NCBI RefSeq assembly: GCF_964355755.1
Contig: NC_092678.1
Span: 21,866,365 to 21,930,364, forward strand
Reading direction: 5' to 3'
Length of the DNA: 64,000 nucleotides
Source: Antedon mediterranea
Lineage: Eukaryota > Echinodermata > Crinoidea > Comatulida > Antedonidae
Shown here: piece after piece, positions 5,148 to 59,046 of the stretch
Position numbering within the stretch: position 1 is the first letter of the stretch
Layout: every line of letters starts with the position of its first letter
The notes under the pieces: generated by a model
Told to the model about the DNA's origin: nothing
Databases searched by the model: none
What the model saw: only the letters and a program-made list of their open reading frames with translations
Translations under genes and position numbers: made by a program

Positions 5148-6556
5148 GCTAAGCACAAATGCCGCAATATAAGCGCAAATGCTACATTATAATAAGTGCA
5201 AATGCTGTGCCAATAAAATAAGCACAAATGCTTCAATATTAAGCACAAATGCCACAATATACTGTAGTCCTAAGTGCAAATGCCACAATATTCTGTAGTC
5301 CTAAGCACAAATGCCATAATATTCTGTAGTTCTAAGCACAAATGCCACAATATTCTGTAGTCCTAAGCACAAATGCCATAATATTCTGTAGTCCTAAGCA
5401 CAAATGCCACAATATTCTGTAGTCCTAAGTGCAAATGCCACAATATTCTGTAGTCCTACTGTAAGCACAAATGCCACAATATTCTGTACTCCTAAGCACA
5501 AATGCCACAATATTCTGTACTCCAAGCACAAATGCCACAATATTCTGTAGTCCTAAGCACAAATGCCACAATATTCTGTACTCCTAAGCACAAATGCCAC
5601 AATATTCTGTAGTCCTAAGCACAAATGCCACAATATTCTGTACTCCTAAGTGCAAATGCAACAATATTCTGTAGTCCTAAGCACAAATGCCACAGCATTC
5701 TGTACTCCTAAGCACAAATGCCACAATATTCTGTAGTCCTAAGTGCAAATGCCACAATATTCTGTAGTCCTAAGTGCAAATGCCACAATATTCTGTAGTC
5801 CTAAGTGCAAATGCCACAATATTCTGTAGTCCTAAGTGCAAATGCCACAATATTCTGTAGTCCTAAGTGCAAATGCCACAATATTCTGTAGTCCTAAGTG
5901 CAAATGCCACAATATTCTGTAGTCCTAAGTGCAAATGCCACAATATACTGTAGTCCTAAGTGCAAATGCCACAATATTCTGTAGTCCTAAGTGCAAATGC
6001 CACAATATACTGTAGTCCTAAGTGCAAATGCCACAATATTCTGTAGTCCTAAGTGCAAATGCCACAATATTCTGTAGTCCTAAGTGCAAATGCCACAATA
6101 TTCTGTAGTCCTAAGTGCAAATGCCACAATATACTGTAGTCCTAAGTGCAAATGCCACAATATTCTGTAGTCCTAAGTGCAAATGCCACAATATACTGTA
6201 GTCCTAAGTGCAAATGCCACAATATTCTGTAGTCCTAAGTGCAAATGCCACAATATACTGTAGTCCTAAGTGCAAATGCCACAATATTCTGTAGTCCTAA
6301 GTGCAAATGCCACAATATACTGTAGTCCTAAGTGCAAATGCCACAACATTCTGTAGTTCTAAGTGCAAATGCCACAATATTCTGTAGTCCTAAGTGCAAA
6401 TTTATTTATTTTATTTATGGCACAATATACTGTAGTCCTAAGTGCAAATGCCACAATATTCTGTAGTCCTAAGTGCAAATGCCACAATATTCTGTAGTCC
6501 TAAGTGCAAATGCCACCATATTCTGTAGTCCTAAGTGCAAATGCCACAATATACAG
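5148..6556. repeat. 31-bp minisatellite array, about 42-45 units
   Basis: The unit is 31 bp (AAGTGCAAATGCCACAATAT followed by TCTGTAGTCCT). Units at the left end are diverged and carry AAGCACAAATG. From about 5730 they are almost identical. Between about 5940 and 6330 units reading ATTCTGTAG alternate with units reading ATACTGTAG, which makes a 62-bp higher-order repeat. One unit near 6400-6420 is interrupted by an ATTTATTTATTTTATTTATGG insertion. There are no spacers and no coding capacity. Confidence 0.95.
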
Positions 6557-7385
6557 TACAGTACCTCTTACTGTACTGTACTATACTGTACAGTACCTCT
6601 TACTGTACTGTACTATACTGTACAGTACCTCTTACTGTACTGTACTATACTGTAGAGTACCTCTTACTGTACTGTACTGTACTGTACTATACTGTAGAGT
6701 ACCTCTTACTGTACTGTACTATACTGTAGAGTACCTCTTACTGTACTGTACTATACTGTACAGTACCTCTTACTGTACTGTACTATACTGTACTGTACAG
6801 TACCTCTTACTGTACAGTACCTCTTACTGTACTGTACTATACTGTACAGTACCTCTTACTGTACTGCGCTGTACTGTACAGTACCTCTTACTGTACTGTA
6901 CTGTACTATACTGTAGAGTACCTCTTACTGTACTGCACTGTACTGTACAGTACCTCTTACTGTACTATTCTGTACAGTACCTCTTACTGTACTGTACTGT
7001 ACTGTACTATACTGTAGAGTACCTCTTACTGTACTGCACTGTACTGTACAGTACCTCTTACTGTACTATTCTGTACAGTACAGTACCTCTTACTGTACTG
7101 TACTGTACTATTCTGTACAGTACCTCTTACTGTACTGTACTGTACTATACTGTACAGTACCTCTTACTGTACTGTACTGTACTATTCTGTACAGTACCTC
7201 TTACTGTACTATACTGTACTATACTATACTGTACAGTACCTCTTACTGTACTATACTGTACTATACTGTACAGTACCTCTTACTGTACTGTACTGTACTA
7301 TACTGTACAGTACCTCTTACTGTACTATACTGTACTGTACTGTACAGTACCTCTTACTGTACTATACTGTACAGTACCTCTTTAG
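6551..7385. repeat. TACTGTA/GTACCTCTTA satellite-like array
   Basis: This array abuts the 31-bp minisatellite. It is built of TACTGTACTGTACTATACTG segments separated by CAGTACCTCTTA. The spacing between CCTCTTA words varies from about 25 to 50 bp because the CTGTA microsatellite core changes length. Three frames are open through it, giving artificial proteins rich in YCTVLYST; these are not genes. Confidence 0.95.
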
Positions 7386-7959: not shown

Positions 7960-7989
7960 GTACCTTGCCGATCATAAACTATTTCAATT

Positions 7990-10900
7990 GCGCTAAAGGA
8001 TTTAAAACATGAAACTCCAATTAGACTACCATATCGTCGTATTCCTCCTCATTCTATATCAAGTGTTAAGTCTATGTTACAAGAAATGTTAGACCAAGGA
8101 ATAATTAGGCCGTCCAAAAGCGAATTTGCAAGTCCCATTGTGTTGGTCAAAAAAAAAGACGGGTCTTTGCGCATGTGCGTTGATTATAGGAAGTTGAATT
8201 TCCAAACGTTGAAAGATTCATTTCCCCTACCACGCATTGATGAGGTTCTAGAAGTACTCACTGGGTCTTGTTATTTTTCTATCTTAGATTTATCTCATGG
8301 ATTTTTCCAAATTATAATGGCAGACGAATCTATTAATAAAACTGCATTTAGGGTTCCTTGGGGACTGTATGAATTTGTTCGTATGCCGCAGGGTCTGTCT
8401 AATAGCCCGGGAACATTTCAACGTGTAATGGAATATGTATTAGGCGACATGAATTTGACTCAGATTGTGTTGTACTTGGATGACATTTTGATATTTTCTT
8501 CTTCGTTTAAACAACATTTATCTAGATTAGAAAATGTGTTGTCCAGATTGTACTGTATAAGTATGGGTTAAAGGTTAAGGGGAAGAAGTGCGATTTCTTT
8601 AAGACGGAGGTAACCTATTTGGGTCATGTTATCTCATCTGCTGGAGTTGCTGTAGACTATGGGAAAATAGAAAAGATACTGACCTGGCCAACGCCAAAAA
8701 GTATTACTGAACTTAAATCATTTCTGGGACTCTCTTCATACTATCGAAAGTTTATTTGTAATTATGCCAAAATTGCTGCGCCCTTGCATTTGGTAACCCG
8801 GTTGTCTGACACACAAGCGGGGAAGGCCCACAGTTTTCGTTGGACTGAAATTGAAGAAGCCGCATTTGTTGAATTAAAAAATGCTTTAACTAAACCCCCA
8901 GTTCTTGTATATCCCAAATTTGATGAACCATTTGTTATTGAAGTAGATGCCAGTTTGAAAGGTTTAGGTGCTTGCTTGTTGCAGGAGTCTAATGGTTCTC
9001 TTCATCCAATTGCTTATGCAAGTAGAAGTCTTCGTGGTGCTGAATGCCGATACCCTGATTTATCGAGTTTTAAGTTAGAGTTGTTGGGGCTAAAATGGGC
9101 AGTGGTGGATAAATTCGCTTCTTACATTCAGGGTTCAAAGGTTACCATTTTTACTGATCATAATCCTTTAGCGCATTTAAAAACTGCAAAGCTTGGCGCT
9201 ACAGAAATGAGATGGGTCTCTCAGTTAGCTATGTTCGATATTGAAATCAAATATAAGCCAGGTTCTAGCAACAAATGTGCCGATACTTTAAGTTGTCGTC
9301 CGATTAGTGTGTGTACGGATTTTAAGTCGGATCTAGGAGTTATCGCTTCATGTCTTAATATATATGTTGATTCTCATCTCTCAATTAATAAGTGTAAACC
9401 ATGTATTGAAATTGATCAATCATCACGTAATATTAACAAAGCATTGTCTATTTTTCCTTCTTACTCCCATGAGCAGTTGGCAGAATGTCAGAAGAAAGAT
9501 AGGGAATTGGGAGAAATCTGGAAATTATGGATAGAAAAATGGTGTCCTGGTGACCGCTACAATACAGATAATTCTAGAATGTTGGGCTGGTTGAGACAGT
9601 GGACAAGTTATAGAGAGATTTGTGGAGTTCTGTATAGAGAGATCAATGAGGATATCCATGGTAAAATTCATCAATTGTTAGTGCCTACTAATTTGCGCAA
9701 TCTTTTTATAGATTTATGTCATGATAAATGGGCTCATCAAGGAGTTCAACGGACTATACAACTTCTAAAGCGTCGATGTTTCTGGCCAGGTATGAATGGT
9801 GATGTACGTACGCATATTTCCAAGTGTTTTAGTTGTGTATCTAGTAAAGTCCCTACTCCAACGGTCAAACCCCCTCTTCGTCATATTCTAGCCTTTCGTC
9901 CCGAAGAGATTCTTGCTATAGATTTCTTAAAGATGGATCGTGGAAAGGGAGGCTATGAGGACATTCTTGTTATGACTGATGTGTTTAGTAAGTTTTCATT
10001 AGCGGTCCCATGTAAAGATCAGACGGCTGATACAGTGGCTCGTGTATTGAGAGATAATTGGTTTTCCCACTATGGTGTGCCAGCACGGTTACATTCGGAT
10101 CAAGGTAGATCCTTTGAGGGTAAAATTATTCAAGGTATATGTAGTCTTTATGGCATGACAAAATCTCGCACTACAGCGTATTGGCCTGCAGGTAATGGGC
10201 AGTGCGAACGTTTCAACAAGACCTTATGCAGTTTATTGCGTTCTTTAAGCCCGAAAGATTGACGCAAATGGCCCGAATTGCTGCAGCATATTGTGTTTAT
10301 GTATAATTCCACCCCTCATACCGTTACAGGTGTAACACCGTATCTTCTTATGTTTGGTCGTGAACCATTAATTCCATTAGATCACTTTATTGGAGGTGCG
10401 GAGCAAGATTGGTCTGAGGATTATTTGACTAAAGAAGCTGATCTCATGAAGAGGGCATATGAAGTGGTTTCACGTAGAATCAAATCAGCAGCAGCTAAAG
10501 AAGAGCATCGTTATAAGTCTTGTTCTCCGACGGAAATATTAGAAATTGGTGATCGGGTTTTACTTCGTCGAAGACATTTTAATACTAGACATAAATTGGC
10601 TAATAAGTTCGAGGAGCACTCGTATATTGTTGAGACTATTAACAAAGAAGCAGACGTTTTTGGTATCCGCTCTGCAGTTGGGGGTCCTTTGAATTATGTT
10701 AACCGCAGACGATTGCGATCGGATCCTAGGAGTGTGGTGGAAGAACTGGTACATTTTGATTGGAATGAGTGGTTGCCGTATGATGGTCTAGAAGTGGATG
10801 TAAATTATAAAGATGAAAGTTGTGAGTCTGAATCGGACGATGATGTTGAAAGTTTTAAGATTGTTGTAGATGTGAATTCTGATCAATCAATAGATGTTGA

Positions 10901-11000
10901 GCGTGATGATTCGAGAGTAATTCCAAGGCGATCATCTCGTTTTACAAAAGGTGTTCACAAAAATCGATATCGCTTACCCATGTCCACTCTTAAAAAATAA
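7990..11000 (+). pseudogene. Gypsy pol remnant (RT, RNase H, integrase)
   Basis: The reading frame is broken into 8074-8571, 8619-10262 and 10278-11000. The first part carries the RT core with YLDDILIFS. A small insertion near 8555 shifts the frame, and a TGA at about 10260 interrupts the integrase. The second part holds the RT thumb, RNase H (VIEVDAS, TDHNPL) and the integrase HHCC zinc finger followed by the catalytic region (AIDFLKMD, HSDQGRSFE, GNGQCERFNKT). The third part is the integrase C-terminus. The domain order RT-RNH-INT is that of Ty3/Gypsy. With frameshift, stop and missing gag the copy cannot be autonomous. RT and integrase motifs are otherwise well kept, so decay is moderate. 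Confidence 0.9.
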
Positions 11001-29200: not shown

Positions 29201-30487
29201 TTAAAACGCTAATAAATTATGAGGCAGGTATTTTCGGCATTTGTCACTACCGCAATAACATGGTTTTGAATTTTGTATATTTTGTGTCGGTTCTAAATCA
29301 CCATGGTAACTATAACATAACTCTTCTCGACTGCTGATGTCATATTTGGCGAATAAAGCAGCTCGTGGGATTTCATTATTAACTCGAACCGGAAAAACTT
29401 CTAAATTTGGATTGCATGAGTGGTTTATAAACCGTCCAACATTACCAATGTATGTCGGGTCAATAAACGTAATCTTTGTTTCTTTCCCAGCATGCTCTTT
29501 TAAAATTAACAGATAATTCATATCGTCTATAGTTTTTACATCTGTTCTTGATTTTGCTTCAGAATGTCCTAAAATTTCTCCAGCGTACTCACAGACAAAC
29601 TGCCCTTTTCCAATGTTTTGCAATGCTCGCAGACCCAATCCTTTATTTTCTGTCATAAAAGCTTCGAGCTGGATAGCAATACCATTCTGAACGACGCGGT
29701 TTATGCAAGTGTCACCACAGCGACAAGATCCATTGCATTCAAATATTGGTTTTATGTACGGAAGACTAGAGTTTGATGTTATTGTGAGAAGATGACCTTT
29801 GTCATCATAATTTGGTCCGTATGCTTTAATGCATGTACAACCTGGTCCACATGATAACACTGTACAATTGCATCCCTCAAGGGTAAGTTCAGAGGGCTCA
29901 TGTTGGTACCCCTTTCCTGCCACATTTTCGGAAGTGTACTATAAAAACATAAATTAATACAATTCATACACAAAAATGCTTTCTAGTAATTCTGGAAAAT
30001 ATAGTCTATGGATTATTTCTGTTATGCAAAAAAATATATATAGAATTAGGGTGCTTTAAAATTTACACAAATGAGGCCATGTATGGAATGGCTGGTGGTA
30101 GATAGATGTGGAGGGGATACGGCAACCGATCACCACGATGCACGCTGGCAACAGAGGAAGGGGGGTGATCATTGCTTATGGTTTACCATATATAGGCTCA
30201 CTAGCTAACGATAAATACTATTTTATAGTAATAGTAGTAAGCCTAGCCTAGCTAGCACACAGACACAGTAGTGACAATAATATTATTTAACCTTGATTTA
30301 CCTTAAAAGTAGCACCTTGCTCAAGTAGATAATCTTTTGGAATTTTAACTGGAACATTTTCTAATTCATTAGTAAAGTAAGCCATTTCAAAATACCACGT
30401 GAAATATTGAAATGCAGAAAATAAACTTGAAATGATATCCCTTGTAAAGTTGTACAATTGTTTACTGTTTATACCAAACCCACCCAT
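29201..30487 (-). CDS. SETMAR: SET-domain histone-lysine N-methyltransferase, SETMAR orthologue without transposase
   Basis: Two exons, 30302-30487 and 29201-29938 in transcript order, join in phase 0 (TTT AAG / TAC ACT) to give 307 residues. The join makes ATFKYTSENVAG, which corresponds to the FQYTPDHVVG region of human SETMAR. Pre-SET (about residues 85-140) has all nine zinc cysteines (GCNC, C, CTC, ECN, CRC, C). The SET domain (about 155-275) contains GRFINHSCNPN and a YSYHGD motif; post-SET is CYCGSDKC. The protein stops just after post-SET, so there is no mariner transposase, as expected outside primates. It is predicted to methylate histone H3 lysine; the exact site is inferred from the family. 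The gene's promoter side and exon 1 are repeated 2.2 kb upstream. Confidence 0.93.
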
Positions 30488-31093
30488 GCGTTACAAATTT
30501 ACACCGCGAGTTCTAAGTTTAGTCAATTGAGGGCGACATTACTATTTTCTTGAATATCAGAAACCACTGACAATCTACTGTCAAACAATCGTACACAAAA
30601 TACAGAAACTGGTTGATTCGATAGATATAAAAACCATTACATAAAAAACTTTCACTTATTCTTCAATACATTTTTATTTCAATATACAAAATATTTTGAT
30701 CAAGTAATTTTATAAGTTACTGAATATTATTCCAATTTATGTTATAATAAGCTTATAAAGAAAACATGTACACGTTAAGATGTATCTAACGTAACTGGTT
30801 GGCCCGACAAAAAAACAAAGCAACGTGTTTCTAAAATACATATTTGTTACTTATTTATAAGACACATAGCATAGTTAATATTATTAAATTAAATGTATTA
30901 TGCATAATAACAGAATAGACAGACAGACAGCATACCTGGTTTGACGATTGATGAAAGTTAAATAGATAAATATAAAATAATTAATTTAATGAAAATACAA
31001 TTTATTTCGCTGACATAATCACGTTAATGTTTGAAAAGTTCAGTTTATGCAAATGTCTAATGAAGTTAATAGTTATTTTACAGAAATGGTTAA
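30488..31093. other. SETMAR upstream region, unit 1
   Basis: It lies between the SETMAR start and the stop codon of the chimeric sHSP gene, so it holds the SETMAR promoter and the sHSP 3' UTR. An AGACAGACAGACAG run lies near 30917. The same region recurs at 32687-33295. Confidence 0.5.
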
Positions 31094-32686
31094 TTATTCC
31101 GTTTGCGCATGATCAGCATCATCGCCGTCTGCTATCACTTCTTTTTCTTCTGTGTCGTCTGCTCCGTTATGCGTACTTTCCTCATTCGGTGACGTCAATG
31201 CATTTGTAGTGGCACATAATGGTGCGTTGATAACAAGAACGCCATTGTCTTGCAGGTTTGATCTCAACTGGTTGACATCTGCGTCAGACGGCAAGTTAAA
31301 CCATTTCGTAAATTCTTCATGCAAGAAGTGTCCGTCACTCTCCTCAATTTTCTTTGCATGAACTTTCAATTTGTGTTCCTCAATGCTCACATTCACGTGT
31401 TCTGGTTTAAAACGTTTCATTGGCAGTTCAACGTGAAATCCACTCTTGGAGTCCGTTTCTGGTTCCTGATTTTGTGAGGTGGTCATGGCCACGGCATCTT
31501 GTTCAGGAGGGTTGGCAGGTGGCATCTCAGATTGAGATGGTTCGTCCTCCTTTTTGTCGGCATTCTCCATCGAATCACTTTCAGTTGAAATTTTTGCCGA
31601 TTTCGCATCTGACGTAATCGACTCTGGCTCGTTGGTGATTGTCTTAAACGGCGCAATAACATGCAGAGTGCCATCCCGAGACAGACTTGATGTCAACTTG
31701 TCTGTCTCAATATTTTCTGGTAAGCTGTACCATTTGAAAACTTCAGAAGAAGCTGTTTCTGATTTAGCATGGATTTTCAGACGGTCTTCATCTAGTGATA
31801 CGTCAATTTCGTCAGGTTTAAAGTTTGACAAATTTAGTCCAACGTGAAATTTGCCTTCTTCTGTTCGAGGACAGCATGCTGCTTTTTTCTTTTTCAATGC
31901 ATCGTTCTTATGTTGTCTCATTTCTTTCCCATCAAATGTATCCAGAAGAAGAAACGTCGGAACTGAGCTTCTACGAAAATGTCTATCGAATCGGTCGTCT
32001 GATAGGGTCCAGGGATTGTAGAATTGAATGCATGTACAACCTGGTCCACATGATAACACTGTACAATTGCATCCCTCAAGGGTAAGTTCAGAGGGCTCAT
32101 GTTGGTACCCCTTTCCTGCCACATTTTCGGAAGTGTACTATAAAAACATAAATTAATACAATTCATACACAAAAATGCTTTCTAGTAATTCTGGAAAATA
32201 TAGTCTATGGATTATTTCTGTTATGCAAAAAAATATATATAGAATTAGGGTGCTTTAAAATTTACACAAATGAGGCCATGTATGGAATGGCTGGTGGTAG
32301 ATAGATGTGGAGGGGATACGGCAACCGATCACCACGATGCACGCTGGCAACAGAGGAAGGGGGGTGATCATTGCTTATGGTTTACCATATATAGGCTCAC
32401 TAGCTAACGATAAGTACTATTTTATAGTAATAGTAGTAAGCCTAGCCTAGCTAGCACACAGACACAGTAGTGACAATAATATTATTTAACCTTGATTTAC
32501 CTTAAAAGTAGCACCTTGCTCAAGTAGATAATCTTTTGGAATTTTAACTGGAACATTTTCTAATTCATTAGTAAAGTAAGCCATTTCAAAATACCACGTG
32601 AAATATTGAAATGCAGAAAATAAACTTGAAATGATATCCCTTGTAAAGTTGTACAATTGTTTACTGTTTATACCAAACCCACCCAT
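31094..32686 (-). CDS. Chimeric gene: SETMAR N-terminus fused in frame to a dual alpha-crystallin sHSP
   Basis: Exon 1 (32501-32686) is a copy of SETMAR exon 1. Exon 2 (31094-32137) starts with the SETMAR exon 2 splice site and about 37 codons, then passes at 32024-32027 into sHSP sequence without a frame change. The predicted protein is 409 residues: 99 from the methyltransferase, up to GCTCI, then FYNPWTLSDD and both alpha-crystallin domains to the normal HAQTE end. Only five of the nine pre-SET cysteines remain and there is no SET domain. The sHSP lost its own first 26 or so residues and its heat-shock promoter, and now sits behind a duplicated SETMAR promoter. Splice signals are unchanged from the parent. 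Whether it is expressed is unknown; a collapsed or misjoined assembly must be excluded. Confidence 0.8.
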
Positions 32687-33295
32687 GCGTTACAAATTTA
32701 CACCGCGAGTTCTAAGTTTAGTCAATTGAGGGCGACATTACTATTTTCTTGAATATCAGAAACCACTGACAATCTACTGTCAAACAATCGTACACAAAAT
32801 ACAGAAACTGGTTGATTCGATAGATATAAAAACCATTACATAAAAAACTTTCACTTATTCTTCAATACATTTTTATTTCAATATACAAAATATTTTGATC
32901 AAGTAATTTTATAAGTTACTGAATATTATTCCAATTTATGTTATAATAAGCTTATAAAGAAAACATGTACACGTTAAGATGTATCTAACGTAACTGGTTG
33001 GCCCGGCGACAAAAAAACAAAGCAACGTGTTTCTAAAATACATATTTGTTACTTATTTATAAGACACATAGCATAGTTAATATTATTAAATTAAATGTAT
33101 TATGCATAATAACAGAATAGACAGACAGACAGCATACCTGGTTTGACGATTGATGAAAGTTAAATAGATAAATATAAAATAATTAATTTAATGAAAATAC
33201 AATTTATTTCGCTGACATAATCACGTTAATGTTTGAAAAGTTCAGTTTATGCAAATGTCTAATGAAGTTAATAGTTATTTTACAGAAATGGTTAA
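32687..33295. promoter_or_regulatory. SETMAR upstream region, unit 2 (promoter of the chimeric gene)
   Basis: This is a copy of 30488-31093, differing visibly only by the 3-bp indel near 33006. By position it supplies the promoter and 5' UTR of the chimeric gene and the 3' UTR of the intact sHSP at 33296-34303. Confidence 0.5.
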
Positions 33296-34303
33296 TTATT
33301 CCGTTTGCGCATGATCAGCATCATCGCCGTCTGCTATCACTTCTTTTTCTCCTGTGTCGTCTGCTCCGTTATGCGTACTTTCCTCATTCGGTGACGTCAA
33401 TGCATTTGTAGTGGCACATAATGGTGCGTTGATAACAAGAACGCCATTGTCTTGCAGGTTTGATCTCAACTGGTTGACATCTGCGTCAGACGGCAAGGTA
33501 AACCATTTCGTAAATTCTTCATGCAAGAAGTGTCCGTCACTCTCCTCAATTTTCTTTGCATGAACTTTCAATTTGTGTTCCTCAATGCTCACATTCACGT
33601 GTTCTGGTTTAAAACGTTTCATTGGCAGTTCAACGTGAAATCCACTCTTGGAGTCCGTTTCTGGTTCCTGATTTTGTGAGGTGGTCATGGCCACGGCATC
33701 TTGTTCAGGAGGGTTGGCAGGTGGCATCTCAGATTGAGATGGTTCGTCCTCCTTTTTGTCGGCATTCTCCATCGAATCACTTTCAGTTGAAATTTTTGCC
33801 GATTTCGCATCTGACGTAATCGACTCTGGCTCGTTGGTGATTGTCTTAAACGGCGCAATAACATGCAGAGTGCCATCCCGAGACAGACTTGATGTCAACT
33901 TGTCTGTCTCAATATTTTCTGGTAAGCTGTACCATTTGAAAACTTCAGAAGAAGCTGTTTCTGATTTAGCATGGATTTTCAGACGGTCTTCATCTAGTGA
34001 TACGTCAATTTCGTCAGGTTTAAAGTTTGACAAATTTAGTCCAACGTGAAATTTGCCTTCTTCTGTTCGAGGACAGCATGCTGCTTTTTTCTTTTTCAAT
34101 GCATCGTTCTTATGTTGTCTCATTTCTTTCCCATCAAATGTATCCAGAAGAAGAAACGTCGGAACTGAGCTTCTACGAAAATGTCTATCGAATCGGTCGT
34201 CTGATAGGGTCCAGGGATTGTAGAATCCAAAGCCTGGTTCCCTTCGCCGACAGCAGCTGTGCACTGGTCTATGAACAAAACTTGGTGAATATAAACTGAA
34301 CAT
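33296..34303 (-). CDS. Small heat-shock protein with two alpha-crystallin domains (intact copy)
   Basis: The single-exon gene encodes 335 residues from the ATG at 34303 (MFSLYSPSFV), the start shared with the divergent paralogue. The N-terminal region has two CC pairs. The first alpha-crystallin domain is about residues 85-151 (FHVGLNLSNFKPDEIDVSLD, ending GTLHVIAP). An acidic, Ser/Pro-rich linker follows. The second domain is about 221-294 (FHVELPMKRFKPEHVNVSI, ending GVLVINAP), then an acidic tail. sHSPs are ATP-independent chaperones that hold unfolding proteins. TATA-like TATATAAG (minus strand, 34391-34384) lies about 80 bp upstream, and a heat-shock element lies further up in the shared promoter. 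It differs from the chimeric copy at N/T in KWF(T/N)LPS and E/G in the tail. Confidence 0.93.
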   Translation of the reverse strand: MFSLYSPSFVHRPVHSCCRRREPGFGFYNPWTLSDDRFDRHFRRSSVPTFLLLDTFDGKEMRQHKNDALKKKKAACCPRTEEGKFHVGLNLSNFKPDEIDVSLDEDRLKIHAKSETASSEVFKWYSLPENIETDKLTSSLSRDGTLHVIAPFKTITNEPESITSDAKSAKISTESDSMENADKKEDEPSQSEMPPANPPEQDAVAMTTSQNQEPETDSKSGFHVELPMKRFKPEHVNVSIEEHKLKVHAKKIEESDGHFLHEEFTKWFTLPSDADVNQLRSNLQDNGVLVINAPLCATTNALTSPNEESTHNGADDTGEKEVIADGDDADHAQTE

Positions 34304-34711
34304 CTTAACAAATAAATTCACACTGGTAGCTTTTTCTTGGTCGTTTTGTTTGCGATTGATGAAATCCCTGGCTTCGCACTTATCTTATATAGTCTGATTT
34401 TACATTCGCCACAATTGTAGAACAATCGGGAACTAGTCGAAGAATCATCACGATTGGTCGAGAATTATAGAGGGCACTATTTTGATCTATTTTTAGATCG
34501 CTTGTAAATCCGCCCTCTATGGTACAGAATATTCTAGATGGTTCTGCCTGGTTCCCGAGTTTTCTGCTGTGTGACGATATTTCTTAATATGGAAGCTGGC
34601 GAGAATATAAATAACCACAATGAGAAGGGTTAGGCATTAATCGTTAAAACAGAAAAAAGTAAACACAATATTAACAAATTGACTGCAAAGAGAATACTAT
34701 ACATTGGAAAA
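34304..34711. promoter_or_regulatory. Bidirectional heat-shock promoter between two sHSP genes
   Basis: Only 408 bp separates the two start codons. TATA boxes face both ways: TATATAAG on the minus strand (34391-34384) and TATAAATA on the plus strand (34606-34613). Between them, 34526-34545 reads AGAAT ATTCT AGATG GTTCT, four contiguous pentamers in the nGAAn/nTTCn alternation with one base off in the third, a strong heat-shock factor site. Weaker GAA units spaced 10 bp apart lie at 34419-34433. HSF control of both genes is inferred from this. Confidence 0.8.
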
Positions 34712-35755
34712 ATGTTCAGTTTATATTCGCCAAGTTTTGTTCAGCGCCGACCAGCAGTGTGTTGCCGACGAGAACCAGAGCTTGGATTCTACAATTCGGC
34801 ATGGAGATCACCATCATCAACAGAAGACTGGCTCGGCTTGGGACGTTTTGCTAACAGGTCGGTTCCAACGTTCCTCCTGATGCTGGATTCATTTGATACA
34901 AATGACAGAAAGAATAACAGAAAACGAAAGAATAATGATACATGTGAGGCGGCGGCAACGAAAAACACAGCATGTCAAAAAAAGGGAGAAACATTTCACG
35001 TTGGTTTCAATTTGTCAGGCTTTAAACCTGACGAAATTAACGTATCACTAGATGAAGACCGTCTAAAGATCCATGCTAAATCAGAAAAAGCTTCTTCTGA
35101 AGTTTTTAAATGGTATAGCTTACCAGAAAACATTGAGACAGACAAGTTGACATCAAGTCTGTCTCGGGATGGCACTCTGCATGTTATTGCACCGTTTAAG
35201 ACAACCACCAAAGAGCCAGAGTCGATTACCTCAGATAGGAAATCGGCAAAAGTATCAATTGAAAGTGATGAGTCGATGGAGAATGCCGACAAAAAAGAGG
35301 ACGAACAATCTCAATCTGACACGATGCCACCTCCTGCAAACCCTGAACAAGAAGATTCAGTGATCATGACCACTACCTCACCACCACCAGAACCAGACTC
35401 CAAGAGTGGATTTCACGTTGAACTGCCAATGAAACGTTTTAAACCAGAACACGTGAATGTCAGCATTGACGAACACAAATTGAAAGTTCATGCAAAGAAA
35501 ATTGAGGAGAGTGACGGACACTTCTTGCATGAAGAAGTTACGAAATGGTTAACCTTGCCGTCTGACGCAGATGTCAACCAGTTGAGATCAAACCTGCAAG
35601 AAAATGGCGTTCTTGTTATCAACGCACCATTATGTGCTACTACAAGTACACTGACGTCACCGAATGAACAAAGTATGAAAACTGGAGCAGACGACACAGA
35701 AAAAAACGAAGTGGTAGTAGACGACGCTGACGCTGATCATGCGCAAACGGAATAA
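34712..35755 (+). CDS. Small heat-shock protein with two alpha-crystallin domains (divergent paralogue)
   Basis: Single exon, 347 residues, start ATG at 34712 (MFSLYSPSFVQRRP). The architecture matches the minus-strand copy: Cys-containing N-terminus, first alpha-crystallin domain (FHVGFNLSGFKPDEINVSL to LHVIAP), acidic linker rich in Pro and Glu, second domain (FHVELPMKRFKPEHVNVSI to VLVINAP) and an acidic HAQTE tail. The N-terminus and linker differ clearly from the minus-strand copy, but long parts of both domains are identical in protein and nearly identical in DNA, including third positions. It is TATA-driven from the shared heat-shock promoter. AATAAA words lie near 36080 and 36530. Confidence 0.93.
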   Translation: MFSLYSPSFVQRRPAVCCRREPELGFYNSAWRSPSSTEDWLGLGRFANRSVPTFLLMLDSFDTNDRKNNRKRKNNDTCEAAATKNTACQKKGETFHVGFNLSGFKPDEINVSLDEDRLKIHAKSEKASSEVFKWYSLPENIETDKLTSSLSRDGTLHVIAPFKTTTKEPESITSDRKSAKVSIESDESMENADKKEDEQSQSDTMPPPANPEQEDSVIMTTTSPPPEPDSKSGFHVELPMKRFKPEHVNVSIDEHKLKVHAKKIEESDGHFLHEEVTKWLTLPSDADVNQLRSNLQENGVLVINAPLCATTSTLTSPNEQSMKTGADDTEKNEVVVDDADADHAQTE

Positions 35756-40192: not shown

Positions 40193-40699
40193 TTAAAATC
40201 TATAGTGTTTTAGTACAGAAATACAAGCTTCCACACCAATATTTGTGTAGTGTGGGTTACCTCCTTCTTTTGTATGGGCTATGACTATAACAGTGTTTGC
40301 GGACTGCATCGATATTGCTCCATGATTCTCCAGTTTACCCCCAACAAGTAATGTGCCGTCTTCTTTCACTTCGTGCATCTCATATGTGTATAGGACACCA
40401 CCAACTTGTATATCACTTGACTCAAACGCTGTTAAGTCTTCATTTCTAAAATACTCCGCTATGTTCGCACCCTCACTACCCTTTAGTACAATCGTCCTAG
40501 AATCGAATTGTAATGGTTCCCAATAATTGCCGTTTTCTAAGCGAATTATACAGGCTTTATCTGCATGATACGCACCGGTTAGATCCGAACTGAGAGTGAT
40601 CACCGCATCAGTCCATGAATTAATATCAGTCAATGGTTGCGTGTACACCGGGTTAACAAGTGAAAGACAAACCAAGGCAACCAAACTAATGAAACCCAT
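40193..40699 (-). CDS. Profilin-like protein with N-terminal signal peptide (gene 1, divergent)
   Basis: Profilins bind actin monomers, poly-proline and phosphoinositides and normally lack any targeting signal. From the ATG at 40699 the protein has 168 residues and begins MGFISLVALVCLSLVNPVYT, a textbook signal peptide with a likely cleavage just after it. A profilin fold follows: ACIIRLENG, GANIAEYFRNEDLTAF, GGVLYTYE, GAISMQSANTVIVIAHTKEG. The C-terminus (ISVLKHYRF) departs from the usual AEYLESLGM. An in-frame ATG at 40801 would add 34 residues and bury the signal; I reject it because gene 2 aligns from the MGFI methionine and has no ATG at the corresponding upstream position. Single exon, intact, the most diverged of the three. 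Confidence 0.85.
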   Translation of the reverse strand: MGFISLVALVCLSLVNPVYTQPLTDINSWTDAVITLSSDLTGAYHADKACIIRLENGNYWEPLQFDSRTIVLKGSEGANIAEYFRNEDLTAFESSDIQVGGVLYTYEMHEVKEDGTLLVGGKLENHGAISMQSANTVIVIAHTKEGGNPHYTNIGVEACISVLKHYRF

Positions 40700-41985
40700 T
40701 ATATCGTTTAAGTTCAGAATTGTAATCAACTTTGAGTTATATTCACTATCACTGTAGAAGGAATGAACATATTTTTTTGCAATTTCATCACTTTTATACA
40801 TTTTCTTCAGCCATTAAAATTATTTAAACATTATTTATTACATTTATAAACGTATGGAATTTATAATTATGCATTTTTTATGCAATTCGGCAAACTGTAT
40901 ACAGTAACGCATGCTAATTGTTTTATTATATTAAATTTTTTATTTAGAATAAACAACAAACATGCGATTTATGATAATTTTATTATTTTGATCTTTTTGT
41001 AACGATCCTAATGGAGTGGCTTTCATTACTATCTATATATTACAATTTTAGCATAAACAAACAAGCCATTGTTCTAACCGTATTTGTTATTTTTATGAGA
41101 AATAATTTTGAATTTGTAATAACAAATTAGAAACTATAATTGAATTGATCACTTTGACGAATTATAGGTGATCATTTTACTGATATTTAATTTAAACAAG
41201 AAATATTTCTTACAAAAAACGCTGCTCGCTTATTGAAAAATATTTTTTATTTCTAATGTTTTTGAATGTGTCTTTATTTTCACATAATAGTTATTTTACC
41301 TGAAAAAGTGTAATTTAAAGCAACAAATACTTAAATTGTCTGTCAGACAATGGTTTTTGGGTTTCTTTTCTCTTTTTATAGGCTGTGAATAAATATTATT
41401 TTTTTGTTACAGAAGTGAATACTCAATTTCTGTCACTTTAATTTTATTGCTAAGGTCAAGTCTGGCGGTCACTTCATCACCCTAGATATTTCAAGTGTGA
41501 AGTATTATATCCTATATTACAAACACAAACTTTAATGGACTGTTTCGATAATAATTCAATGAATATCTGACAGTGAATATACCAGAAATGCTTTGGGATT
41601 TGTAATTTTAGCATGACATGTCCTAATAGACTCTTTTCCCAGACGTTTTTTGGGTCTACTGTAGCAGCTGGAATCAATAAATTATAGTGGAGTTTCCATT
41701 TTCGCAAAACTGTCGTCCTTAGAACTAGCTATAACAGCAGCAGCGTGAAAAAACAGGCAGGTACGTTAAATAAGACCGCAAAATATTGATTAGGCAATCC
41801 TATTACCTGATGCATATATGCTTATGATGCTGATTGGTGCCTATTATGTGTCATAAAATCGTCGATGAAGTGTAAATGGGGTCTTTTTTTATATACTCTA
41901 TACGGTACAGTTCACTGTATATCTATATACTGTACTGTACAGTGTAACATAGGTGAAATTACGGGAACCACAACATGTTTTAATT
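40700..41985. other. Upstream region of profilin gene 1 and spacer
   Basis: The 30 bp before the start (TAAGTTCAGAATT) match the upstream region of profilin gene 2. The rest is AT-rich with no recognised gene. Confidence 0.45.
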
Positions 41986-47661: not shown

Positions 47662-48153
47662 CTACATTCCCAGGGATTCAAGATATTCAGCAATAACTGC
47701 GACACCTTTATTTGTGTTTCCTTGCATTTCTCCCTCTATGGTGTGTGCGATGACTATGGCAGTTTTTGAAGACTGCATCGTAATTGCTCCGTGATCTTTC
47801 AGTTTACCCAAAACAAGTAGGCCTGTGTTCACTTCGTCTTCCCTCAAGAATTGGTATTGAACCCCCTCAGCTTGTATACCACTTGCCATGAACGCTGAGA
47901 AATCTTCACTTTTGAAACTCACTGCTATATCAGTAGCCTCACTTGTTGTTAATTTGTAGGCGTTGGCATGGCCATCTGTTGTCCATTTCGCACCACCGTC
48001 CAAACCAATTATACAGGCTTGATCAGCATGCTCTGTACCACTTGCATCCTTAGTTTGAGCAATCAAATAATCAATGTATGAATCCCAACTCTGCGTGTAC
48101 ACCGGATTGACAAGTGAAAAACAAACCAAGAAAATCAAACAGATGAAACCCAT
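47662..48153 (-). CDS. Profilin with N-terminal signal peptide (gene 2)
   Basis: From the ATG at 48153 the protein has 163 residues: MGFICLIFLVCFSLVNPVYT (signal peptide), then directly a complete profilin beginning QSWDSYIDYLIAQTKDASG and ending AVIAEYLESLGM. Apart from the leader it matches the cytosolic gene 3 over its whole length (ACIIGLDGGAKWTT, QFLREDE, HGAITMQSSKTAIVIAHT). The leader replaces only the initiator Met of MSWDSY. It matches the leader of gene 1, with hydrophobic-for-hydrophobic changes in the core. A possible in-frame start at 48210 is GTG and is rejected. Single exon, intact. Secretion is predicted from sequence; no function outside the cell is known for animal profilins to my knowledge. 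Confidence 0.9.
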   Translation of the reverse strand: MGFICLIFLVCFSLVNPVYTQSWDSYIDYLIAQTKDASGTEHADQACIIGLDGGAKWTTDGHANAYKLTTSEATDIAVSFKSEDFSAFMASGIQAEGVQYQFLREDEVNTGLLVLGKLKDHGAITMQSSKTAIVIAHTIEGEMQGNTNKGVAVIAEYLESLGM

Positions 48154-49370
48154 GTTTCTTCTTCTAAGTTCAGAATTAACCAATACCGAGTTACCGTATT
48201 TAGAGTACACCGCAAGGACTGTACATATTTCACAATAGTTCTCACTTATTCATTTAATTTTAATTAAAACAATGGAGCCTATTGTATTCAATATAATTAT
48301 AATTTCCATACAGAATGCATTGATTTAGATCCCGAAGATTAATAATTAATTAGTAAATAATTAAAATTTACCTTACAACCGAATTTTTTATTTTTTTCCT
48401 TTTGTAATACAATCTAATCCCCGTGTGGACGACAACACATTGTTTTCAGTTTATTTTAATTTTTAATATAATTTATAATATTAAACAAAAAAGCCATTGT
48501 TGTGATTTATTATTTTTTAATTTTATGTAGATATATAAAAAAATAACTAGTTTGCCTATTCAGTAAGTTTGTAATGGACTGGTAATTAAAAAATGGCTTA
48601 ACCTTTCGATGAAACATTGACATTTTAGAATTTTGCGTAGGCTACATTGTGATACCTACCGATATCACAGCATAGCGACGACGTCTGGTGGTTTATAGAC
48701 TATTATTTCAAACTTATCCCTGCAAGTCTGTATAGTTTATTGTTTACTTTTATGTTTTGTATTCTAGTCATCGGCGTTTTGATTTTTTTGAAACTAGATC
48801 AAGTTTTATAGTATCATTTTAGTCGCGTACAAACGCGACTCTACAGCTCACTATCGGTCGGTAAACACTAACTAAAATTTGAGCACGCGACTGCAGCTGG
48901 CCATGTATGGTCTTGGACAAATGGAAGTGCGGAGGAGAGGGAGGGGGTGTCAGTTAGAGGAAGGTGTGCACAATGAGTGTACAGTTTGAATACGCCAAGT
49001 GATGAAAACATAAAACATTAATTATGTTAAATATTAACATATTGCGTGAACAATTAATTTGACGATTTGTTGCTGTTCTTCTTATATAAGGTTTTTTTTA
49101 TGTTATTATTATTTTAAAAAATACAAAAAGGGAAAAGGAAGTAAAAATAGGCTATATAGTATATATATGTATTGAAATGTATTATTTGCAATTCGTACTT
49201 TTTTTTAATACCTTATTCATTTATTTTTATTGTAATTGATTGAAAGAAAGAAAATAAATGTTTACGTTGATTGATTTGTCATATAGTACCGAAACTTTGA
49301 AAGGTCTAATCACCTCAATTGACTTTTGAAGAACGCACTTTTTGTTTCATGTGATAGGCCTACTCTACTA
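48154..49370. other. Upstream region of profilin gene 2 and spacer
   Basis: The first 35 bp (CTAAGTTCAGAATT) match the region upstream of gene 1. Otherwise AT-rich, with no gene recognised. Confidence 0.4.
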
Positions 49371-52365: not shown

Positions 52366-52788
52366 CTACATTCCCAGGGATTCTAGATATTCAGCAATAA
52401 CTGCTACACCTTTATTTGTGTTTCCTTGTTGACATCCCTCTGCGGTGTGGCCGATGACTATGGCAGTTTTTGAACACTGCATCGTAAGTGCTCCTTTATC
52501 TTTTTTTTTGCCGAAAACAGTTTTTTTGTCTTCTTCCCTCAAAAATTGGTATTTTTCTCCCTCAACATATATACCACCTGTCATGAACGTATTGAACTCT
52601 CTACTTTTAAAACACTTTGCTATGTTCGCACCCTCAGCACCTTGTAGTTTAAGCGCCATGGGATGGCCTGCTGTTGTCCAAGGTGCGCCACCGTCCAAAC
52701 CAATTATACAAGCTCTATCACTATGCGCTGTACCACTTGCATCCTTAGTTTGAGCAACCAAATTATCAATATATGAATCCCAACTCAT
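52366..52788 (-). CDS. PFN: Profilin (cytosolic form, gene 3)
   Basis: Single exon, 140 residues, MSWDSYIDNLVAQTKDASG to AVIAEYLESLGM. This long form with ACIIGLDGGAPWTT and HTAEGCQQGNTNKG is the one I associate with echinoderm profilins. It should bind monomeric actin and poly-proline in the cytoplasm. The frame upstream of the ATG closes within ten codons and contains no hydrophobic leader, unlike genes 1 and 2. It has several lysine substitutions (KKTVFGKKKDKGALTM). CCAAT and TATAAAG words on the minus strand near 53000 could be its promoter, which would imply a 5' UTR of roughly 200 bp. Confidence 0.93.
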   Translation of the reverse strand: MSWDSYIDNLVAQTKDASGTAHSDRACIIGLDGGAPWTTAGHPMALKLQGAEGANIAKCFKSREFNTFMTGGIYVEGEKYQFLREEDKKTVFGKKKDKGALTMQCSKTAIVIGHTAEGCQQGNTNKGVAVIAEYLESLGM

Positions 52789-54286
52789 GATTTTAATTGC
52801 TAGGTTTATAAGTGTTCAATAAACTATGAGAATCAAAGAAATGTACGGCTTACTTTAACCAGCACTTCCGCCTTCGCTACCGGTAAATGGTACAAGGACG
52901 TGTAGAATGGAAAATGGAGGTTGGTACCATGAGCGCGAGGAAGTTATTTCACACAAAAACAGACTCCCGCCCTCTACATTAAAGTCTTTATATTGGCTGT
53001 GCCTTTTCGGCTGTGTAGGATATCCATATTTAAAATTTCTATACAAACTCACAGACCTCATAAAATTAATTTTTCTACGATATTTTATTAATTAAAATTG
53101 TTTTTCAGATATATGATTCAATTAACACTATGGATGGAGTACATGAATAATTATTATCTCTGAAGAGAGAATTTAGACCCGCCCTCTAGTGTTTGAATTC
53201 ATGGAGAACAAAAATTCTCGAAATAATAATATCAATAGTTACATTTGGAGACAGTACTGATGTATGGTGCAAAAAAACCTCTCAAGTACCCAATTAAATG
53301 GATTATATAAGGAATTTATAATATAATTATATAATTTTTGTTGTTTCTCTTTTGGTGGAATGTACTAGATTTTTAGGACTTATTGCCACGTACTCATGCA
53401 ATTCGCACTTTTAGTACTATCATTTCACTTCCGCATTCACCACCGCCTCCCATGTAGTTAAAATACGATTTGTTGCGGTTCGGCATGGCGATGTGAGACA
53501 CTCCCCTTTTTCAAAAAAAGTGGGTTACACTATCACGTGATAAACACTAGTAATAACAGAACATGAAATATTACGGTGCTAATCAAAACATGTATAAACC
53601 TTTATAGTAATTCTGTAGTATTAAATAAAATTTAAGTTACATAAAAAATATTAATTTTAATATTGTAACAGGTAATGTAAATGATTGGAAATGTTATTTA
53701 TTTTGGTTTTAGAAACATTTACTGGAGCCTAGTTAGAGGGGACGCTAACCGATTAATTTCCTTGGACACCACCGATACTTAGCCTAGATAGTGTTTGACG
53801 TGTAATTTAAATTTTTGATTTAAAACTACAATTAGGCCTAGGAGGGATTAACGCCTAATTAGTATTGAATATTATGGATCTCCGAATTTTGATGATAATA
53901 ATAATAACATGAATTGGTTGGTTTAGCCACAGTACGCCTTCCTATTTAGGCCTTAATGTGTACTGGCATGGTTGGTAGGGAGTTTGAACTTTTGTGTAAC
54001 TGTTTATACACAGATGCCCACCATTTCCTATGAAATCGTATGTTGTCTCTCCACACTCACTCTGACTCACAGGGCCGAGTCATATTAGCATTACACAGTA
54101 GTATATTATTTTAGCTAGCCTTCATATCTATTGAGTAGGTAGGTCTAATTATTATATAGTAATTAAACCTGGGTTGATATATTATTGTGTATTTTATTTT
54201 ACATTAGTTGAGTTTCCCCTGATTGTGATCTACCATCAGGTGTTTATTAACTAATGAATGATGTTTGAATTCATTTTTTTATTAAG
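52789..54286. other. Profilin gene 3 upstream region and spacer to dystroglycan
   Basis: Minus-strand CCAATATAAAG near 52995 is a candidate profilin promoter. The rest is AT-rich with no confident gene. Confidence 0.45.
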
Positions 54287-54376: not shown

Positions 54377-57300
54377 ATGCGATGCATTACACGTTTATGG
54401 GGAGCATCGTCATTCTTTTACCACCGGCCTTTAAGGAAGCAGAGTTTTAAGATTTTACTAGTCGTTTTCTGTACCTCGATTATCAACAGCAATGCATTGT
54501 GGGGATTGGTAGAAGATGCGGAGGAAAGTAGAGCAATGGTACAGGACAAAATAGCAATTGTTGGAAAAGTATTTGTGTATCGCATTCCAAGTGTGAAGAG
54601 TAAGATGAAGGTGAGAAAATTATTCAACAATTAAATTAGACTGTTTTTCTTCACATCAGTATTGAGTAAAGTTACTATACAGTTGTAGTATACAGTAGTA
54701 CCACATTATAAAGCCTTGTCTACACTATCAAACTTTATGTGACAAAAAAATGTGACGTGCCCGTAGATGGACATGATGATGCCATATCACTAGGATATTT
54801 GGCCACATCAGTACCATATATGTGGACATCACACTTTTTTGTCAAATAAAGTTTGATAGACAAGGCTTAATATGCTATGCGAAAAAAAAAAAAATTATCA
54901 ATATTTTGTATCTCTGAATACTAACTATATATTATTGTTAAATATGGTTTGGGAATGCTTTTATTTTCGTTGTAGTGAATATCTCCATATCATGAAATTT
55001 TCACTGTCACTTCTTTTTTTTCCCTCCTTTATTTTAGGTAACAGAAGCAGGATGTGAATCTCTCCCTGATTGGTTGGACTTCAATGCTGATAATTTGACA
55101 CTGTATGGTATAGCTACTGTGCTGGACATAGGATACCACTACATAAGTGTAACAACCACATCGGAAAACAATAAAGTCTCTAGAAATAATGATATCTTTA
55201 CAATTGATGTCATGATGGACATATCTTTAACTGCAGATAAACTGTCGGACCATTTACCAGAACGAGCAAGAAATAAATTAACTGATATCTTGTTGTTGAA
55301 CCTTCAATCATCAGATGTGTTGACGTATGAGACCAGACTTGAATCATGTTCACCAGACCAACCTCGCTATTCGGCAACTATCATCTTCGATTCCACATTT
55401 AAGGAACTCGGTGGGCAAGCAAGAGTTGACGTTGCCCTACGGTTTGCAGAATTTGTGTCTCGTAGCCCGGTTGATATCACCTTGAGTCCACGTAAAAGTA
55501 CTAGTATCACTCGTCTACTTAAAAAATCAATTGTGGCAGCCGGCGCTGGGGATGTGGATGACAAACACATGGAGGAGAATGTTGAGATTTCATGGACCAT
55601 AGCTTGCAATTATCAATTCCGCATAAAAGACTTTATAATGATTTTAGAACACAATATTTTAAGCAAAACCTTGACAAATGTCATAGGATACTCCATACTT
55701 GGTTGGTATATAACCAAAGAGGCGCCCAGATTCAAACCAAGGATCAGACGGCAGGCGAATGGTATCATTGAAGGAACACCAATGCCCACTCCAAGTCTTA
55801 CCATAGTTCCGCCAACCAATGTAGGGAGTACAAGAACTTTCACTTTTCCGTCCACATCAATATTTTCCGAGTCCACATTTACAATTGAGACTATTCCGTC
55901 CATGTTTACACAAACTATATTTGCATCTCAAGATTCACAACCTTTAATATCATCATTTAGTACATCTGATCAAACATCTTATATTTCATTCAGTTCATCA
56001 GATAGTATAGTGTACTCAACCTTATTTACTTCAGAATCTGTACTCCTATCAACAACAAATTTGATTATGACTTCAACATTGCATATTTCCACTTTGGAAT
56101 CATTTTTCTCAGAATCCGTGTCCACATACAGTGTCCCTCAATTAACTTCATCCACTGCAAGAAGTAATCAATTTTCATCAACATTTATCACATCTTCTTT
56201 GTCTGAGCCATACTTCACAATGACCATTTCACCTGTTGAATTAAGCTCTTCACTTGCTAGAAGTTCTTTTGAAAGTTTTTCTGAGACTTCTTCCAGTACA
56301 TCATTTCAATATCTTAGTAGCGTTGAGAGCTCCTTCAGTTTCTACTTTTCAACAAGCATGGCTAGAGATTCTATGGCCACTGTTGTTCCATTTTCTACTG
56401 ATTCACTATCAATTTCTCCGGTGGTTTCGACAGTAACACTAACAACAGATGTAATGCCATCGACATCACAAAAATCCTCTCAAATGTTGACACAATTGGA
56501 GAGTGACTCTTTGTCAACTGTAATTGTATCAACTGCTGAAACTACTAGTCTAGATATTTCTTTAGACTTATCGTCTGTCATTACTCATCAGCCATTGTCA
56601 TCAACTGAGTTAAATTTATACTCATCAACTTTAATCACAAGTTCAGACTTATTTTCTGTGATGAGTAGCTCTGTTGATGATTCCTTTGTAACCAGTTCTG
56701 TTTTAAAAGAATCAAGCATTTTAGTGTCTTCAGTATCAACTATCCTATCATCAAGTTTTGAGGCGTCTGTTCCAGTGTTCAGCTCTAGCCTGTCACAAAC
56801 CTTCTATTCATTGCAACCATCCTCATCTCTCCTGCCATCAATGACACCTTCTGCATCATCTCAGCAAATCATGTCTTCATCTGAATTGTATTCCATGAAA
56901 TCTTCTTTTTCTATACTATCATCAGAATTGTCACCATCTATATCCGAGACATCTTTTTTTATTAGTTCAATCAACATCGAAACACAAAGTGTATCTCCCA
57001 CATCATCAGTGCTATTATCAGAACCCACCCCATCATCATCAGCAACACCCCAACCATCAGTATCCCAACCTTTAACACCCCAACCATCAGTACCCCAAAC
57101 ATTAACACCCCTAATTTCAACACCCCAATCATCAGTACCCCAAACATTAACACCCCTAATTTCAACATACCACTTATCAACATCAACAACATCCTTTTCC
57201 ACATCCAGCAGTTTGATGCCATCATCGACATTCTTGACACCCTCACCATCATATTTCCCGTCATCTGTTATGGAGAGCAGTTTGCCAACAGTGGTTCCAA

Positions 57301-59046
57301 CACCAACTCTATCTACATCTATCATGGGATCATTGTCCAGCATTTCTGTGTCGTCAATTCAGCAAGTGTTATCTTCTGACATCATACCGTCATCATCCAT
57401 TTCAAATACCATAATCTCATCCAGTTTGTATGTCATAACTCCAGGTAATAAGAACATTAACATGCATGTGTGTTTCTTTGGTGTGCAATATAGAATAAGC
57501 ATGTATTTGTTGTCATGTCCTATTGATTTTATCAGCATATAATAGTAAATATAGCACCAACTAAAAAATCAAAGGCACTGTGGTGAGCTCCTGAACCTTA
57601 TATTTTGTGTATGCTCTCCACCTTGGGTAGGGTTTTAATACTATATTTTGAATTGACTTTTTATATTTTTATTCGAACCATATTTAATGAGGGTGATCCA
57701 TCCAGTAATTGCTGATCATTTGGGACCCTCAGAACAGATACAATACACAAAAAAAGAAAAACAAAACTTGAGAGATTAGACCTCAGATATTCTAAATCCA
57801 CCCAATGTTTACAAATTAAATTTTTTTTACAGAACCCACCAATCAAGGACCGGTTGTTCTTAACGCCATCAATCATGTCTCAATCATAATTGGACGGATT
57901 CTACACTTTGATATTCCTGCCGATACATTTCACGATGCAGAAGATGGAAACACACGCAATCTTAAGCTTGAACTACTTGCAGGTGATAATGAACCTCTAC
58001 AGGGATCGTCATGGGTGAGGTTGGACTCTGAGAATCAGGTTATCTACGGGTTGCCGTTGGATTTTGATTTAATTGGCCAAAAAATAGTTTATAATTTACA
58101 TGCAATTGATACAAATGGTTTAAATGTGTTTGATGCTTTGTATTTAGAAGTGCTTCCTGACCCGTTTATATATAACCACCGATTTTTCATAACATTTAGC
58201 AATAATTACTTTGGATTTGCAAGTTACGTCAATAACGCTATAAACGTGTGTCAACGATTGGCAGATTATTATGGTGATCCGAACACGGATATGATTACAG
58301 TTGCCTCAGTAACAGAGGGATCTGTTATTTATGCGTATGCAAACAATAGCATTGCCAAAGATTTTTGCGATAAGGATACTGTATATAATGTGTATAGTCG
58401 TCTTGCGTATGCAAACGGTTCAGTAAACATTGGCCTATCGATTGTCATGCATCCAAAGTTTTCAGTTATTGCAGTGGACAAAGAATTTACAGGGATATGT
58501 TTACCAAAACCGCAAACCACCAATTCTCCGAATGTGATTGCGGAAAAACACACCAGTGAGGGTGACATAATTCCCATCATTGTACCTGCCCTCCTTTCTG
58601 CCTTAATAATTTTACTGATTGGAATTTGTGTTTGTTTCTGTTATAAGCGCAAACGTCATGGAGAGGAATTTCTATTACCGGAAGAGACTAACATGTTTGT
58701 TGGTAACCGTAAACCAATATTTCTTGATAATGAACTTCAGAAGCAAGCAAAGGCAGCCGAACCAGTAATCTTGCCTAAAGATATATCGCCCTTTCAAGCA
58801 AGTCCAATTTCTGTAAATTACCCCTTGGAAGGCAGGCCTTCTCCTCCTTCATACCTAAATGAAGCTTATGAGAAAGACGACATAGACTTGGGTATTCCTA
58901 TGGCACCTCTTTTTATGCCCCCTGCTTATTCCCCCCAACCTACTTTTAACAGACCACCTCCTTCGTATATGGACCCTCCTACTTATCGTTTACCTCCTCC
59001 GTATGAATCGGAAGATGTTGGGATTTTTGAGACATCAAAAATTTAA
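54377..59046 (+). CDS. DAG1: Dystroglycan
   Basis: Dystroglycan links laminin-type matrix proteins to dystrophin inside the cell. Coding exons 54377-54610, 55038-57444 and 57833-59046 join in frame (phase 0, then G/AA) to 1284 residues. Signal peptide about 20-42; N-terminal cadherin-like domain (VTEAGCESLPDWL, LYGIATVLDIGYHYISV) and a second globular domain ending SILGWYITKEAP; furin site RIRR at 313-316, as in vertebrates. A very Ser/Thr-rich mucin region of about 560 residues follows (about 317-880). Then come the second cadherin-like domain (DIPADTFHDAEDG), a SEA-like region (about 990-1105), a transmembrane helix (about 1127-1151) with basic KRKR, and a Pro-rich tail with PPPY at about 1269-1272, the WW-binding motif for dystrophin, followed by 12 more residues. 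The Gly-Ser autocleavage site is not present (FTGIC at that place). Confidence 0.95.
54712..54867. mobile_element. TAA-MITE copy with intact target duplication
   Basis: AGCCTTGTCTACACTATC and GATAGACAAGGCT are the inverted ends. TAA lies directly on both sides (54709-54711 and 54868-54870). The interior has ATGGACATGATGATG and the CACTAGGATATTTGG word. It lies in dystroglycan intron 1. Confidence 0.9.

Follow-up and report, generated by a model that had tools for sequence, protein, structure and literature searches.

Within the window (the whole 64,000-nucleotide stretch of Antedon mediterranea DNA analysed), an intact SETMAR-type SET gene and an intact small heat-shock protein (sHSP) gene enclose a third gene that combines parts of both. 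This junction gene was very probably made by a recent end-joined tandem duplication that left both parents whole, and it is most likely a near-neutral young copy-number variant. The locus adds a further example of a known process, chimeric gene formation by tandem duplication. Its features are listed below.

29201..30487, minus strand: parental SETMAR, intact; exon 1 30302-30487, exon 2 29201-29938; 307 aa; pre-SET, SET and post-SET cysteines
29828..32024, plus strand: left unit of 2197 bp, covering the 5′ part of parental SETMAR (beginning of exon 2, intron, exon 1, upstream region) and the sHSP 3′ part of the chimera
31094..32137, minus strand: chimera exon 2; 37 SETMAR codons, 1 junction codon, 309 sHSP codons and stop; two HSP20 domains
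32025..32026, plus strand: filler TG, 2 bp, at the duplication junction
32027..34226, plus strand: right unit, 2200 bp; differs from the left one by three substitutions and a 3-bp indel
32138..32500, minus strand: chimera intron, copy of the SETMAR intron; 363 bp, GT-AG
32501..32686, minus strand: chimera exon 1, copy of SETMAR exon 1; first ATG 32686-32684, alternative Met35 32584-32582
32687..33295, minus strand: intergenic stretch 5′ of the chimera; SETMAR upstream region and 3′ flank of the old sHSP
33296..34303, minus strand: parental double-ACD sHSP, intact; 335 aa
34527..34544, plus strand: heat-shock-element-like array GAATATTCTAGATGGTTC, four-unit, 11/12; outside the duplication; about 0 expected in shuffles
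34712..35755, plus strand: sHSP paralog of 347 aa from an older inverted duplication; shares about 90% identity with the minus-strand gene across 770 bp

The duplication and its junction

The two units form a direct tandem repeat of 2.2 kb and match at 99.7%, far above chance. In the 354-Mb assembly, copies of the unit were confined to these two, besides the inverted sHSP paralog (90% identical). On the minus strand, the old sHSP gene (34303 down to 33296) is followed by SETMAR exon 1, intron and exon 2. The breakpoints were located in exon 2 of the SETMAR gene and close to the start of the double-alpha-crystallin-domain (double-ACD) sHSP gene, the duplication starting 37 codons inside the former and stopping 26 codons inside the latter. 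Since both breakpoints lie inside same-strand neighbours, a whole SETMAR gene was left on the left, a whole sHSP gene on the right and one chimera in between. The alignment of the units thereby bore out the 2.2-kb tandem duplication and the two breakpoints proposed in the first-pass annotation, and both parents, including the old sHSP gene said to be retained next door, were found intact.

The junction reads GTAGAAT-TG-AATGCATG and contains no run of N; besides the 2-bp filler, its microhomology amounts to at most 1 bp. End joining, leaving the 2-bp filler and using 0-1 bp of microhomology, is the probable repair class behind the tandem duplication. Retroposition was ruled out because the intron and flanks were copied in tandem, and repeat-mediated unequal crossing over because the breakpoints have no more than 1 bp in common.

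Three substitutions separate the units (30215A/32414G, 31149T/33351C and 31296T/33498G), and the right unit carries 3 additional bp at 33004-33006, in agreement with the earlier count of about four differences. Further mismatches at 29827/32026 and 32025-32026/34227-34228 represent filler or breakpoint edges and are not unit differences. The resulting divergence was 0.14% on substitutions (3/2197), or 0.18% with the indel counted (four events).

Gene structure of the chimera

The breakpoints fall within two same-orientation genes of a direct tandem repeat, and the frame is open across the junction. Splicing of exon 1 (32501-32686) to 31094-32137 yields 1230 nt, corresponding to 409 codons and a stop, as the first-pass annotation had claimed. 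The splice donor AAG/GTAAAT and the acceptor TTTTTATAG/TACAC are the same as those of the intact SETMAR gene, and the SETMAR alignment, which continues through the splice join (ATFK/YTSENV against human APFQYTPDHV), lends this join support. The proposed retention of the SETMAR promoter, exon 1 and splice sites was likewise recovered, in that the upstream region, exon 1 and the GT-AG intron were all copied. The junction gene thus consists of the SETMAR 5′ end (upstream region, exon 1, intron and the first 37 exon 2 codons) and the sHSP 3′ end and, if transcribed, would be spliced as SETMAR.

The junction peptide is ...CTCI/Q/FYNPW..., in which Gln is new. Its codon (CAA, minus strand) consists of the filler and one adjacent base, and brings both frames into phase; an in-frame join alone has a 1-in-3 chance. 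Downstream, 309 of the 335 sHSP residues are retained, and the polyadenylation signal AATAAA of the sHSP gene is kept 88 nt past the chimera stop.

An in-frame TAA lies two codons ahead of the first ATG, which is found in the context ACGCATGG, and Met35 lies in GAAATGG, which fits the common animal start context better. From Met35 onwards, the sequence (MAYFTNELENVPV) presumably resembles the human SETMAR start. The foreign N-terminus thus has at most 99 residues and perhaps 65, because Met35 is better placed as a start; the 99 residues claimed previously hold as an upper limit, not as stated.

Parental genes and promoter context

Pfam domains and structure matches confirmed the SETMAR and sHSP identities assigned in the first-pass annotation. 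The parental SETMAR gene (29201-30487) encodes pre-SET and SET domains, and its best match among solved structures was human SETMAR 3bo5 (E=1.4e-71), with an alignment that spans the inferred splice. The assembly yielded one complete SETMAR SET exon and no second full match, the other matches being partial and at most 54% identical, besides the duplicated 42-residue stretch. The parental sHSP has two HSP20 domains and resembles the double-domain structure 2bol, and a further double-domain sHSP gene occurs on C8.

At 33296-35755, two double-ACD sHSP genes are arranged head to head, with a short bidirectional promoter whose heat-shock elements are common to both. The identity of about 90% over 770 bp between these paralogs indicates that the inverted duplication is older than the tandem one. 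In the 382 bp between them, the three-unit heat-shock element was matched four times at 8/9, where 0.14 matches would be expected, and TATA-like motifs occur at 34386 and 34606. In the 609 bp 5′ of the chimera (32687-33295), by contrast, no heat-shock element was found at 8/9 or better. Upstream heat-shock elements, the mark of a heat-inducible gene, are thus present in the parental sHSP promoter and absent from that stretch of the chimera, which supports a putative promoter swap from heat-shock to SETMAR. The earlier claim that the sHSP was heat-inducible agrees at the sequence level with the heat-shock-element-like sites of the parental promoter (best 11/12). The 'housekeeping-type promoter' ascribed to the chimera was not upheld, as the upstream region is an AT-rich 609-bp intergenic stretch with no positive sign of one. 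Expression of the chimera would probably be SETMAR-like and not heat-driven.

Predicted product of the chimera

The predicted chimera contains two HSP20 stretches (E=5.1e-27), so that both alpha-crystallin domains and the sHSP tail are kept, while 26 N-terminal sHSP residues are gone. A domain search detected no SET domain in the chimera, and only 5 cysteines lie in its first 100 residues, short of the pre-SET Cys9 zinc cluster. A methyltransferase function was rejected, because the SET domain is missing and the pre-SET zinc cluster is broken; no such activity would be expected of the product. If transcribed, the gene would encode a double-alpha-crystallin chaperone in which 65-99 SETMAR residues take the place of the sHSP's own 26-residue N-terminus. 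The sHSP N-terminus is thought to control assembly, and the chimera may co-assemble with the parental sHSP.

The sHSP part of the chimera differs from its parent at two residues only. When polarised with the inverted paralog, the Thr-to-Asn change at 31296, within the KWFTLP stretch, was assigned to the chimera and the Glu-to-Gly change at 33351 to the old sHSP. At the position of the chimera's Asn, Thr is present in the old gene and in both the inverted and the C8 paralogs. This chimera-only change slightly favours relaxed constraint, and the two amino-acid changes cannot provide evidence for or against selection.

Age, status and alternative explanations

The few differences between the units suggest that the duplication is young or recently homogenised. 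If neutral substitution proceeds at 1e-9 to 8e-9 per site per year, an assumed range, the three or four differences seen in 2197 bp would take about 0.1-0.9 million years to accumulate, with wide limits of about 0.02-2.3 million years; gene conversion between the units could make this apparent age lower than the true age. The earlier view of a very young event is in line with three substitutions and one indel in 2.2 kb, or else with recent homogenisation. The differences could all be allelic, the units perhaps diverging no more than alleles do, and the duplication is possibly still polymorphic.

The possible allelic origin of the three substitutions and the indel also bears on whether the repeat is an assembly artefact, in which a haplotype copy or a misjoin from chimeric reads would have been set in tandem as the second unit, the animal itself carrying only one. 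However, an overlap-based assembler would hardly build this junction unless a read contained it, given that the homology does not exceed 1 bp, a 2-bp filler is present and N is absent; there are also four distinct positions at which the units disagree. The assembly search revealed no third copy either, and 13 sampled 10-kb pieces contained satellite-like arrays only, with no other non-satellite tandem duplication above 1 kb at 99% identity or more. We consider an artefact unlikely, since the absence of N, the filler, the minimal homology and the unit differences together indicate that the junction is likely real in at least one haplotype.

Selection for a functional new gene, i.e. a beneficial chaperone with a new N-terminus and a constitutive or SETMAR-like expression pattern, appears more doubtful still. 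The frame is complete, the splice sites, start, stop and polyadenylation signal are all kept, and in a D. yakuba population sample expression was raised in 24 of 76 chimeric genes formed by tandem duplication (PMC5460883). Nevertheless, with few substitutions, only about 5% of the possible ones being nonsense, an intact frame is expected by default, and the chimera-specific change hits a conserved position. The designation 'newborn gene', which implies expression and function beyond what DNA can show, was not sustained as stated, the intact frame at about 0.14% divergence being expected without selection. There is also a small chance that the chimera is an expressed chaperone caught at its very origin, lacking heat-shock elements and bearing an N-terminus from SETMAR that alters assembly or location, and that it is segregating or recently fixed in this species. 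Most likely, the duplication is at present a young, possibly polymorphic, near-neutral copy-number variant and not an established new gene.

Other features of the window

Three profilin-family genes (Pfam) form a cluster on the minus strand at 40193-40813, 47662-48249 and 52366-52815. Two of the three start with a signal-peptide-like stretch (MGFI..L..VC.SLVNPVYTQ), which is unusual for profilin and suggests that this pair may encode secreted profilin-like proteins. A likely dystroglycan gene (DAG1 Pfam match) was located at 55038-59046, with a very Ser/Thr-rich open frame upstream. Furthermore, a retrotransposon-like pol region with RNase H and integrase domains extends across consecutive open frames at 7978-11000, and two abutting satellite-like arrays occupy 5246-7377, one with a 31-bp unit (about 37 copies) and the other with a 32-37-bp unit rich in TACTGTAC.

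Comparison with known systems

If real and expressed, the locus would represent a clean and very young new protein-coding gene with both parents adjoining, encoding a chaperone probably freed from heat control and changed at its N-terminus, and the earliest steps of chimeric gene evolution would be open to study. The mechanism of chimera formation itself is well known and not new; in Drosophila, tandem duplications have been shown to give rise to chimeric genes whose expression is altered (PMC5460883). A literature search for a SETMAR-sHSP fusion returned nothing relevant.

The parental SETMAR gene matches the SET moiety of human SETMAR (PDB 3bo5) over the pre-SET, SET and post-SET regions, whereas its frame stops after post-SET, without the transposase part. 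The chimera departs further from this moiety, being limited to the N-terminal stretch and five pre-SET cysteines. Like the double-ACD sHSPs (PDB 2bol; earthworm, PMC13226371), it has two HSP20 domains in one chain, but its N-terminus is swapped for SETMAR sequence. One member of the earthworm double-ACD set bears a THAP domain (PMC13226371), so foreign domains on such proteins have precedent. As in known tandem-duplication chimeras (PMC5460883, PMC4503668), the breakpoints lie in two same-strand genes and the 5′ end of one was joined to the 3′ end of the other at the duplication junction, with the parents kept and a putative regulatory swap. The present case differs from them in its genes and animal, and in the in-frame fusion of coding exons via a filler-made codon.
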